Positions 7,456 through 41,240 of a stretch of 64,000 nt of DNA are shown piece after piece. The notes beneath the pieces are model-generated. The model was not told where the DNA came from. It ran no database searches and saw nothing but the letters and a program-made list of their open reading frames with translations. Positions within the stretch are counted from its first letter, which is position 1, and every line of letters begins with the position of its first letter. The DNA comes from a virus, in IMG/VR virus record IMGVR_UViG_3300031884_000002, positions 124,001 through 188,000 of that record; one strand, 5' to 3'. The translations under genes were made by a program, and so were the position numbers.

Positions 7456-7530
7456 GGCTAATTAGTTTAACGGTAAAACAAGATATTCTAAACATCTTAG
7501 TCATCGGTTCAAATCCGATATTAGCCACCA
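7456..7530 (+). tRNA. tRNA with anticodon CUA (amber suppressor)
   Basis: A 75-base cloverleaf can be folded completely. The acceptor GGCTAAT/ATTAGCC is perfect. The D stem is GTTT/AAAC with a seven-base loop containing GG. The anticodon stem AGATA/CATCT has one A-C mismatch next to the loop. The seven-base loop TTCTAAA puts CTA (7488-7490) in the anticodon position behind U33. The variable region has five bases, the T arm is ATCGG-TTCAAAT-CCGAT, the discriminator is A73, and CCA is encoded. CUA pairs with UAG, so this should be a suppressor tRNA. The short variable arm excludes Leu, Ser and bacterial Tyr types; the amino acid is not readable. Shifting the anticodon stem to make another anticodon destroys the pairing. 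Confidence 0.85.
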
Positions 7531-37900: not shown

Positions 37901-39241
37901 TTATTTCATCGGGACAAGCTTCGGGAGGCTTATTTTCTTTAATTTTGGAAGCACAATTGCCGCTTGTCTAGCTATTTCAGGAACATGTTTATCCAATATA
38001 GAATGAAATTGTTTATCCATCTCTTCAACTGAAAATTTAGTAGTATTTTCAATTCGTAATTTTTCAGCTTTATCCAATATATCTTGATTATAATTAAAGA
38101 AATAAGATTTCATTTTTTCAGCCGCTTTATTATAATCAACCACGAACCATTGACTCTCTTTAACAAACCAATCATTTACTACTTCAGCCGGAACTTGTTG
38201 AAGAGTTCCTTCAAAAAAATCAGAATGTTCTGGATTCATATAATCTAAATGACCAGACCAATTTGGTAGAATAGTAGGTTTACCCAATACAGTTCCGGTT
38301 AATCCAGACATACCCCAACTTTCACCGTGACTAAAACTAACAAATACTTTAATTTTATCAGAATTAACCAATGCATTCATTTCAGAATCGGTCAAATCTC
38401 CATAAAACAAATAAACATTAGGAAGTTTAGCATTGGGAAGATTGTGTTTTACCATACTGGTAATATCATTTAATTTATTTACACAATCATGTCTATCTAC
38501 CACTCCTATCTGAGCACCATTCACCTTAAGTATTAAACATGGTGGATTTTCAATTCCGGCGAAGGCTCGAAGAAATGTCTCAATTAATCTACCAGTATCT
38601 TTTCTATCAGAATTACCATTTCCCGACCACATTCCACTATAATAGAAAGCAAATGTTTCTGGTATTTTTACCAATTCTTCTTCAATCGAAGGAAGTTTTT
38701 CATTGGTCTTTTTATAAATAGAAGTATTTATTCCCCATGGCAATACTTCGATTGATTTATTAAATTTCAATGGTTCTTGAGTTCCATTTGGGTTTTTCTT
38801 AACATATTCGGTTTTAAGTGCAACCTCTTTATTAAAATTAGACATAACTATACTCAAGTTAAATCTATTCATTCCCTCAATAAATTGAGGGCTTAATGCA
38901 GAGTTTTCAGTAAGAGCAGAAATACCAATGTTGTAATTTCCATGTGGTTGCCATTCGTTGGGAATACTCACATGAAAATATATGTCTGGTTTTTTATTTA
39001 TATTACCTCTAACAATTAAAGATAATAATTCTTTAGTTTCTGGGTCTTGTGCCAAATCTTCTATACTACGTTGGCCCGTTGCGCCCCAAGGGGTAAGAAC
39101 TATTCCCAATTGATAATCCTTCTTTTTACAATATCGCAAAAGAGATTTACCTATTTCTAATGAATATCTACCATATCCCGACGCAGTTTGCAATGCAGAT
39201 TGGTAAATTACTAATGGTTTATTATTTAATATGTCAGTCAT
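37901..39241 (-). CDS. GT4-type glycosyltransferase, 446 aa
   Basis: The protein starts with a GT-B N-domain (QSALQTASGYGRYSLEIGKS, an acceptor-side glycine loop), has VLPWGINTSIYK (near 175) where GT4 enzymes carry PHGID, and the donor-site VFVSFSHGESWGMSGLTGTV (near residue 300; E-x7-E region). Overlaps the split-dUTPase C-half by four bases, so these are co-transcribed. Sugar and acceptor unknown. Confidence 0.75.
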   Translation of the reverse strand: MTDILNNKPLVIYQSALQTASGYGRYSLEIGKSLLRYCKKKDYQLGIVLTPWGATGQRSIEDLAQDPETKELLSLIVRGNINKKPDIYFHVSIPNEWQPHGNYNIGISALTENSALSPQFIEGMNRFNLSIVMSNFNKEVALKTEYVKKNPNGTQEPLKFNKSIEVLPWGINTSIYKKTNEKLPSIEEELVKIPETFAFYYSGMWSGNGNSDRKDTGRLIETFLRAFAGIENPPCLILKVNGAQIGVVDRHDCVNKLNDITSMVKHNLPNAKLPNVYLFYGDLTDSEMNALVNSDKIKVFVSFSHGESWGMSGLTGTVLGKPTILPNWSGHLDYMNPEHSDFFEGTLQQVPAEVVNDWFVKESQWFVVDYNKAAEKMKSYFFNYNQDILDKAEKLRIENTTKFSVEEMDKQFHSILDKHVPEIARQAAIVLPKLKKISLPKLVPMK

Positions 39242-39804
39242 AAACTTTTCATCTTTTCTCGTATTTGTTCCTCATATGGTTTAATATGAGAAATATTTCC
39301 ACCGTGTTTTTTATACTCTTCGATAATATCAGAATTGGTTCGGGGAGGAATTGGTAATGTATTATTATGTGTTACGAATCCCTTAACATTAAGGTCAACT
39401 GCTCCAATAGATTCTTTGGTTATTGATATTATATTTTTATCATATTGTTTCGATAAATCAATTGCCGCATCTAATTTATCAATCGACTTAACTGATGGAA
39501 TTGGTTCTGGTTTAATATCAGTACTTCCAAATCCTTTTTCTGCTCGTTCGGTCTGTGATAATTCATCGACTAATTTAAACTCGTGAACAGTATATGCCGA
39601 AAATATAATTTGAGCCATTTTATCTCCAATATTAATTTTATATGGCTCTTTTCCAAGATTTATTAGAATAACTTTTATTTCTCCACGATAATCGCAGTTA
39701 TGTATTAAAAAATCATTACAAAAAAAATTATGATTATTCTCTACTGTTATATCATATGTCTTTTTTTTAACTTTACTTATTGATTTTATTGTTGATAATT
39801 TCAT
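39238..39804 (-). CDS. dut: dUTPase C-terminal half fused behind a C-intein
   Basis: Residues 1-36 are a C-intein: KTYDITVENNHNFFCNDF (block F) then LIHN (block G, terminal HN). The next residue is cysteine, followed by DYRGEIKVILINLG, GDKMAQIIF and RAEKGFGSTD, which are dUTPase motifs III (second part), IV and V. The N-terminal half, with motifs I, II and the start of III, is in the separate gene 40734-41240. Splicing in trans would restore GGTID-C-DYRGE, the conserved active-site motif. After motif V a further 90-residue tail of unknown type follows. The endonuclease gene 39773-40675 ends inside this gene's start (32-base overlap). Confidence 0.85.
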   Translation of the reverse strand: MKLSTIKSISKVKKKTYDITVENNHNFFCNDFLIHNCDYRGEIKVILINLGKEPYKINIGDKMAQIIFSAYTVHEFKLVDELSQTERAEKGFGSTDIKPEPIPSVKSIDKLDAAIDLSKQYDKNIISITKESIGAVDLNVKGFVTHNNTLPIPPRTNSDIIEEYKKHGGNISHIKPYEEQIREKMKSL

Positions 39805-40675
39805 TTATTATAGTTTTTAATTCTGTTTTGGAATAACATACATAAAAGTCATTGTTATATTTTAATTTAGCCGCTAATGTTTTTTCTATTAAATTTTTAT
39901 CTGGAAACCCCTTCATCTCAATTACTATTCGTCTTCCTGTATTTAATATCAACTCAAAATCGGGTAAATATCTTCGCATTTTTCCTTCACAATCAATATA
40001 TTCTATCACATCGAAGTTTCTTCGCCAAGTTTTTATATTTTCATTAGAGTCGAATATTGTCATAGCCTCTAACTCCAATCCACTTGCATAAAAAATATTT
40101 TTATAATATCCAGTTTTAAAATGATTAGATACAAAATCCAATTCTCCAGATTTACATTTATCCGCCAATGTTTTGGATATTTTATTCCTCCATATTTCGA
40201 AATTATCTTCGTCTCTAAAATATTTAGTACACCCCCCTTCTTCTCCCCAATATTTATTATAATTTTGCTTCATAAACTCCGAATGCTTTTGTAAATATGG
40301 ATATATTTCTTTCGTCCTTCCAGTTAAGTGTTTTTTATTTTTCTCTCCAATTAACCTAACTCGGTCGTCAATTTCTTTAGTTAGACCAATATTCCAATTT
40401 TTATGACCTTCTTCATATGTTTTTTTAATTATTTTACTCTGTCGTTCTTTTAACTCTGTAGTCCATTTTGTCTTTCGAGAAGCATTAGTTTTATTTCTAT
40501 ATAATGGATTTTTCCAATTTTCCTCCATCATTTTACTTATTCTTTTCTGTTCTTCATCTGAAACGACTGGACCATATGTTTTTTTATAAACATCAACTGA
40601 TAATTTATGAGTTTTAATAATATGGTCTATTAATCTTCTATTTGTCGTATGTCCGCATATTTCACATTTTATCAT
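39773..40675 (-). CDS. endonuclease gene between split-intein halves
   Basis: The 300-residue protein starts with a zinc-finger/HTH-like region (MIKCEICGHTTNRRLIDHII; YKKTYGP), has a long basic middle (NASRKTKWTTELKERQSK) and a C-terminal nuclease domain with ASGLELEAMTIF, RYLPDFEL and RIVIEMKG, a PD-(D/E)XK-type site. It lies exactly where a splicing-domain-embedded endonuclease would be, but as an independent gene with its own start and stop. Fractured genes made of two split-intein halves with an endonuclease gene between them are known from marine phage metagenomes; the endonuclease here is the PD-(D/E)XK-looking type. Confidence 0.75.
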   Translation of the reverse strand: MIKCEICGHTTNRRLIDHIIKTHKLSVDVYKKTYGPVVSDEEQKRISKMMEENWKNPLYRNKTNASRKTKWTTELKERQSKIIKKTYEEGHKNWNIGLTKEIDDRVRLIGEKNKKHLTGRTKEIYPYLQKHSEFMKQNYNKYWGEEGGCTKYFRDEDNFEIWRNKISKTLADKCKSGELDFVSNHFKTGYYKNIFYASGLELEAMTIFDSNENIKTWRRNFDVIEYIDCEGKMRRYLPDFELILNTGRRIVIEMKGFPDKNLIEKTLAAKLKYNNDFYVCYSKTELKTIINEIINNKINK

Positions 40676-40733
40676 AATATTTCCTTAGTAATCATTATCT
40701 ATGTATAAATAGCGATTACAAAGGGAAAATTCA

Positions 40734-41240
40734 TTAAAAGTGTAATATTTTTTCACCTAATTTTAGTTCGTCGGCACGTTTTATTCCAGTTTCGGTATAT
40801 ACTTGAGTACCCGGTGTTATTTCTATATAATCATCATCAGTTTCTATTGCTAATAATTCTTTATCTCCTAAAGATACTATAGCAGATACAAAATCTCGCT
40901 CCAATTCTAAATTTTCATTAACTGAATATACAATATCATTTATTCTCAATTCTTCTATAAATTTTTGACCCTTTTCAGTCTTAATAGTACAATCCCCCGA
41001 AAAACAATCTATCGTGCCACCTAACACATCAATCCCATTTTTAAAAGATAATCCACTGCGGGGAGATATTCTTCCAAATAATCCCGTTGGAATTGCTATA
41101 TTTATACCAGTTTTAAACAGTTTTCGTTCCAATGGCTGGAGTTCATAACTTTCAATACTATATAAGTCATATCCTGCGGCATATGATGTTCCTCTAGTTG
41201 GAACAACCGCATTTACATCTGTCTTTTTAAGTTCAATCAT
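40734..41240 (-). CDS. dut: dUTPase N-terminal half fused to an N-intein
   Basis: The start is ATG 41240 (MIELKKTDVNAVV); a TTG at 41276 is in frame but unneeded. Residues 1-78 are dUTPase: AAGYDLYS (motif I), PRSGLSFKNG (motif II), GGTID (start of motif III). Directly after, CFSGDCTIKTEKG begins an N-intein of about 91 residues with RINDIVYSVNE and a block-B-like ITPGTQVYTETGIKRADEL, ending at LGEKILHF. Where most inteins have TxxH in block B there is TPGT, an unusual replacement. dUTPase hydrolyses dUTP to dUMP and keeps uracil out of DNA; activity here needs the C-half from 39238-39804. Confidence 0.85.
   Translation of the reverse strand: MIELKKTDVNAVVPTRGTSYAAGYDLYSIESYELQPLERKLFKTGINIAIPTGLFGRISPRSGLSFKNGIDVLGGTIDCFSGDCTIKTEKGQKFIEELRINDIVYSVNENLELERDFVSAIVSLGDKELLAIETDDDYIEITPGTQVYTETGIKRADELKLGEKILHF

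Follow-up and report, generated by a model that had tools for sequence, protein, structure and literature searches.

We analysed a 64,000-nucleotide stretch of viral DNA (hereafter the window), bases 124001-188000 of the 353,772-base IMG/VR virus record IMGVR_UViG_3300031884_000002, from a giant phage, in which the gene for dUTPase is interrupted within its active-site motif III. Three neighbouring open frames on the minus strand encode, in order, the N-terminal half of dUTPase (N-half), an endonuclease and the C-terminal half (C-half), and each dUTPase half carries one part of a split intein. We consider this very probably a naturally fractured dUTPase gene whose halves would be trans-spliced and whose TnsA-like homing endonuclease, encoded between them, would spread the unit.

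A dUTPase gene divided between adjacent catalytic-motif residues

A sequence-only reading of the window had proposed a dUTPase in two genes with split-intein halves and an endonuclease gene between them, and all three lie where it put them, at 39238-41240. Its N-half ending in GGTID and its 36-residue C-intein ending in LIHN, followed by C-DYRGEI, also read as claimed; the N-intein, given as about 91 residues, is present and is 90 residues long. Two features go beyond that reading: the replacement of the block B His by Thr and a 92-residue extension of the C-half. The features are as follows.

40734-41240, minus strand: N-half gene, 168 residues, ATG at 41240, stop TAA at 40734-40736
41007-41240, minus strand: N-extein, dUTPase residues 1-78, with motifs I and II and the first part of III; ends GGTID, the motif III Asp being the -1 residue
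40737-41006, minus strand: N-intein, 90 residues (79-168), starting CFSGDC; Cys1; block B T-P-G-T, with Thr replacing His
40676-40733, minus strand: gap between N-half and endonuclease genes, 58 nucleotides, with an AAGGAA-like ribosome site ahead of the endonuclease ATG
39773-40675, minus strand: endonuclease gene, complete and free-standing, 300 residues, ATG to TAA
39238-39804, minus strand: C-half gene, 188 residues
39697-39804, minus strand: C-intein, 36 residues, ending LIHN; block F Asp18 and His25, penultimate His35, Asn36
39517-39696, minus strand: C-extein, dUTPase from the +1 Cys (CDYRGEI), with the rest of motif III and motifs IV and V
39241-39516, minus strand: C-terminal extension of the C-half, 92 residues, absent from the related C-halves examined; no family found

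Residues 1-78 of the N-half match profile positions 3-74 of PF00692 (E value 1.3e-14) and TIGR00576 (6e-21), and the C-half from CDYRGEI onward matches PF00692 positions 68-128 (7.8e-14). When the halves are joined, the product contains the full domain of a trimeric-type dUTPase (PF00692) with all five motifs, including motif III, G-x-I-D-x-D-Y-x-G. It aligns to human dUTPase over residues 8-137 with an E value of 6e-36 and no gap at the join, where GTID-C-DYRGE of the phage stands against GVID-E-DYRGN of the human enzyme. Because the halves span the dUTPase profile end to end and match the human enzyme without a gap, chance resemblance is excluded. The join falls, as had been proposed, inside motif III, between its Asp (-1) and a Cys (+1), and so separates adjacent residues of a catalytic motif; this Asp we take, from established knowledge of the family, to be the catalytic general base.

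The C-intein matches TIGR01443 (E value 6.9e-6, above its cut-off) and Intein_splicing (2.5e-5), and the N-intein gives a weak match to intein/Hint profiles. In the window the endonuclease gene is fused to neither half; its 3' end overlaps the start of the C-intein by 32 nucleotides, so that the C-half start codon lies inside it, and a similar overlap occurs in contig L036 and its relatives. Phage genes, when interrupted, often bear introns, and a self-splicing intron could in principle join the halves at the RNA level. This is scarcely credible here, as there is no Rfam intron near the locus and each half has a complete intein terminus, its own start and stop, and an intein profile match.

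The same codon is interrupted in other viral contigs

To find relatives, we queried IMG/VR with the C-half sequence as well as with N-intein, C-half and endonuclease alignments. Besides the window, 52 distinct contigs interrupt dUTPase at exactly the same codon, a count to be read as a lower bound (at least 52 other viral contigs). N-half, endonuclease and C-half are all present in 41 of them, one of which (L031) has the endonuclease broken into two frames. Six contigs carry the two halves with no endonuclease and a 65-base gap; in the gapped form that we compared (L028/L034), these bases are what a deletion has left of the endonuclease gene, its 3' end. The other five show the unit in part, with one or two pieces not found, which is what short contigs that end inside it would give.

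No unsplit (cis) dUTPase intein was found among all loci, the single-frame inteins encountered belonging to other genes. No N-intein relative with the conserved pattern was found in bacterial or archaeal genomes (genome_contigs). Searching viral contigs with the N-half of the window alone gave no match, probably because the patterns were too specific; the alignment search did find relatives.

The sequence-only reading had named frames joined at the DNA level, that is, an assembly artefact, as one outcome that would undo it. The sharing of one arrangement at one codon by 52 other contigs excludes an artefact of assembly. A broader version, in which the locus is an artefact or a pseudogene, could draw on the metagenomic origin of the contigs and on damaged C-halves in a few relatives (L042, L074). 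It is contradicted by the recurrence of the same architecture across many samples and in lineages that have diverged, by purifying selection (see below) and by the lack of another dUTPase in the records, and we give it almost no weight.

Two further observations concern individual relatives. The C-halves at L074 2064-2246 and L042 3349-3615 have an internal deletion or an early stop and may be decayed genes or sequence errors. In the closest relative, a second endonuclease-like gene lies directly downstream of the split dUTPase (L043 5731-6648).

The intein-endonuclease unit is mobile and under purifying selection

Related phages with an unsplit gene and no endonuclease, which the sequence-only reading had suggested looking for, do exist. 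Locus L166 holds an intact dUTPase that shares 96% identity with the L098 product as spliced, and DNA identity between the flanks of the two contigs is 83-95%. The joins are exact, and the change at the site is in the +1 codon, which reads CAA (Gln) where the gene is intact and TGT (Cys) where it has been invaded. Of 77 intact alleles close to the L098 lineage, 45 have Gln at the +1 position, 16 Ser, 11 Asn and five Glu, and none has Cys. In this lineage, therefore, the +1 Cys most likely arrived with the insert by co-conversion, and it would persist after splicing as a scar of one residue in the mature protein. We rejected the broader view that dUTPase never has a +1 Cys of its own, as intact dUTPases of other lineages natively carry Cys there (a set selected by a pattern containing IDCDYRGE).

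Between L036 and L039, synonymous divergence (dS) is 1.7-2.2 in the exteins and 0.57-0.65 in the N-intein and endonuclease, indicating a more recent origin for the intein-endonuclease unit than for the dUTPases surrounding it. Across 19 representatives the inteins are more alike than the exteins, with differences in identity of up to 30 points (86 versus 56 for L036/L042). Empty-site alleles, as in the L166/L098 pair, and the dS contrast are what is looked for in a homing element, and at the level of sequence comparison they show that the unit spreads laterally. The fractured gene proposed by the sequence-only reading thus stands, as one member of a mobile family. The endonuclease would be expected to cut at the intein-free dUTPase site.

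Both dUTPase halves and the intein are under purifying selection. The ratio of nonsynonymous to synonymous divergence (dN/dS) of the intein is lowest, 0.04, in the endonuclease-free pair L028/L034, and 0.05-0.11 in other pairs; judged by these ratios, the intein is kept functional even once it is unable to home by itself. We found no second dUTPase in the record of the window, and none beyond the two halves in 14 other intein-bearing records. Because the join lies in motif III, the halves are the sole dUTPase of the window's record and of these 14, and selection is purifying, we strongly infer that trans-splicing is needed for dUTPase function, as the sequence-only reading had supposed.

A split-intein family without the block B histidine

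A class 1 split intein is expected to carry T-x-x-H in block B. We compared 21 distinct full N-inteins, that of the window included, and 22 distinct C-halves. In all 21 N-inteins block B reads T-x-x-T or T-x-x-S, with the Thr kept and the His absent. Alignment of the N-intein profile to 1mi8, a structure of the Ssp DnaB intein (E value 2.5e-7), placed the block B Thr on Thr and the Thr/Ser on His (H73), and each of ten non-dUTPase inteins compared, three of them from the same genome, has His in that column.

The remaining splicing residues are retained. Cys1 is present in 21 of 21 N-inteins; the block F Asp (F:4), the penultimate His and the terminal Asn are invariant, and the block F His is kept in all members except L073. 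The +1 nucleophile is Cys in 21 of the 22 C-halves and Ser in the other (L044). The -1 residue is always the motif III Asp, because dUTPase needs it. In a maximum-likelihood tree the dUTPase inteins form one group (support 91/92), so a single loss of the block B His is the simplest reading of the family's sequences.

Two members deserve separate mention. At L073 5174-5497, the C-intein without the block F His reads NNSNFF, and its partner N-intein also lacks the block B His. The divergent member at L044 1739-2032 combines +1 Ser with FFAN replacing FFCN; this single case suggests that the +1 nucleophile and the conserved Cys close to the end of the C-intein may change together.

The block B His has been described as more highly conserved than any other residue of inteins (PMC6333167), and the few natural exceptions are a degraded pseudogene and Tko CDC21-1, in which a Lys compensates (PMC6333167, PMC7765530). 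An engineered mutant without the block B His is rescued by a large side chain at -1 (PMC6333167), and in the crystal of the CL intein the block B His is in contact with an Asp at -1 (PMC13014065). With this His absent from the dUTPase inteins, it cannot be taken for granted that they splice by the standard mechanism. First-step catalysis would have to proceed in a rearranged form, to which the invariant -1 Asp and the Thr/Ser at B:10 might contribute. The fuller proposal, that the intein splices without the block B His by using the host's motif III Asp at -1 plus the B:10 Thr/Ser for first-step catalysis, we offer tentatively and regard as somewhat doubtful. If it were true, enzyme and intein would share one catalytic residue, tying the intein to dUTPase.

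The missing His also bears on what the intein pieces do. They might serve only as a clamp, the dUTPase halves being active by association without splicing; split enzymes can complement, and the His is missing in all members. A clamp would not need Cys1, the penultimate His, Asn36 and the +1 nucleophile, which are kept in every lineage, and the join splits neighbouring residues of the catalytic motif. The low intein dN/dS (0.04-0.11), seen also where the endonuclease is gone, speaks against it as well, and we consider a clamp improbable. Alternatively, the intein might cleave and not ligate, leaving trimmed dUTPase fragments to act as a two-chain enzyme. An Asp at -1 favours N-terminal cleavage in some inteins, and loss of the block B His could unbalance the steps. 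This is very improbable given that the +1 nucleophile, which ligation needs, is conserved as Cys or Ser throughout the C-halves, and that in the L098 lineage the Cys stands where the intact relative has Gln.

We infer, with good support, that the dUTPase halves are spliced in trans. Several points weigh against the full account of a spliced and homing dUTPase: with the block B His absent, efficient splicing is not guaranteed; L073 lacks the block F His in addition; the target of the endonuclease is only a prediction; and all records are metagenomic. In the mechanism that we propose, two half-proteins would be translated from one region and come together by their intein parts, with trans-splicing carried out by Cys1, Asn36 and the +1 Cys. 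The predicted product is one dUTPase chain with Cys directly after the motif III Asp. The TnsA-like PD-(D/E)XK endonuclease, with its zinc finger, would cleave dUTPase genes that lack the intein, at the codons for motif III, and repair of the break would copy the whole N-intein/endonuclease/C-intein unit, plus the +1 Cys codon, into the cut gene.

The endonuclease has a TnsA-like nuclease domain

The endonuclease consists of an N-terminal C2H2 (Ros/MucR-like) zinc finger, a helical middle and a C-terminal TnsA/VRR-like PD-(D/E)XK nuclease. In an AlphaFold model (13 sequences, mean predicted local distance difference test score, pLDDT, 78.7), the best structural matches of the C-terminal domain (residues 181-300) are TnsA (Z score 9.8, root-mean-square deviation 3.2, 123 residues aligned) and VRR-NUC (9.2, 3.2 and 89), followed in the match list by other PD-(D/E)XK nucleases. 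The motif residues E201, P238-D239, and E253 and K255 (E253-x-K255) are invariant. The Pfam TnsA-like nuclease (N) is matched by 10 of 13 members and Ros/MucR zinc fingers by three. Predicted fold and motifs together support assignment to PD-(D/E)XK, in keeping with the complete PD-(D/E)XK-like gene that had been read between the halves.

No VSR-like fold stands among the listed structural matches, a listing that does not exclude one. The endonucleases of the same genome's helicase and ribonucleotide reductase split genes match DUF559/MTES_1575 instead, which we take to be the VSR-like kind. A PHROG label of 'head closure' for the endonuclease was set aside; it reflects a nuclease domain common to T4 gp4-like proteins and no capsid role.

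Further fractured genes in the same genome

The terminase of the record is nearest to that of Flavobacterium phage immuto (47% identity). Beyond the window, the same record has fractured genes for a B12-dependent ribonucleotide reductase, a DnaB-like helicase and RecA. The reductase (L004 2568-6552; G000:190568-194552) is in three pieces with two split inteins and an endonuclease gene between pieces 2 and 3 only. The helicase and RecA genes (L004 6612-9501 and 12581-15305) have endonuclease-like genes between their halves, and the RecA intein is split, atypically, after only about 13 residues. At L007 1-2838, the open frame adjoining the terminase, probably a portal gene, contains two cis inteins with HNH-like domains. 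A tRNA with a CUA anticodon lies at 7456-7530 of the window (a possible amber suppressor), and TAG is the stop of only one of 40 larger genes.

Comparison with known systems

Dassa and colleagues are said to have described, in 2009, fractured genes with split inteins and free-standing endonucleases from phage metagenomes (for example gp41-1, NrdJ-1 and IMPDH-1), their host genes reportedly serving nucleotide metabolism or replication and their endonuclease reportedly being VSR-like. The dUTPase unit resembles these in its order of N-extein and N-intein, endonuclease gene, C-intein and C-extein (in the window and 41 contigs, the endonuclease being secondarily lost in six). It differs in that its endonuclease is a TnsA-like PD-(D/E)XK protein; the reported VSR-like type resembles the DUF559-type enzymes of this genome's helicase and NrdJ split genes.

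The sequence-only reading knew of no dUTPase example. We found no split dUTPase in the annotated phage records searched and no earlier report of dUTPase as a fractured-gene host in the literature searched, which excluded the full text of the founding 2009 paper; nor did the literature searched yield a split intein without the block B His. Neither a dUTPase host nor a split-intein family that consistently lacks this His therefore appears to have been described, the arrangement itself being of a known kind.

The nearest relatives in the tree, a placement weakly supported, are split inteins of the UvsW helicase in Salmonella phage CF-SP2, phage S16 and L327-L332. Like the dUTPase intein, they have the order N-half, endonuclease, C-half (seen in CF-SP2 and L327) and are inserted beside a catalytic acidic residue with Cys at +1. 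They differ in keeping the block B His (TENH, TGNH), in their helicase host and in the gene between the halves. The UvsW intein of L327-L332 and L304 interrupts the DEAD-box motif, parting D-E from C-H, and in L327 its terminal Asn is preceded by Ala, not His.

Tko CDC21-1 is likewise a natural intein without the block B His (PMC7765530, PMC6333167), but it is archaeal, has Leu at -1 and is compensated by Lys, whereas the dUTPase intein is split and phage-borne, with Asp at -1 and Thr/Ser at B:10. The M86/Ssp DnaB intein with its block B His removed and a bulky -1 residue demonstrates that the residue at -1 can make up for the loss of this His (PMC6333167); that form is engineered, whereas the -1 residue of the dUTPase intein is fixed by the host enzyme.

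With this family the hosts of fractured genes come to include dUTPase, a small enzyme that phages use in nucleotide metabolism, and the stages of a homing cycle can be read in its sequences, with the site empty and the endonuclease present, broken or deleted. A natural and diverse split-intein family without the residue described as most conserved in inteins makes the question of the first splicing step directly testable, and its members may serve as splicing tools.
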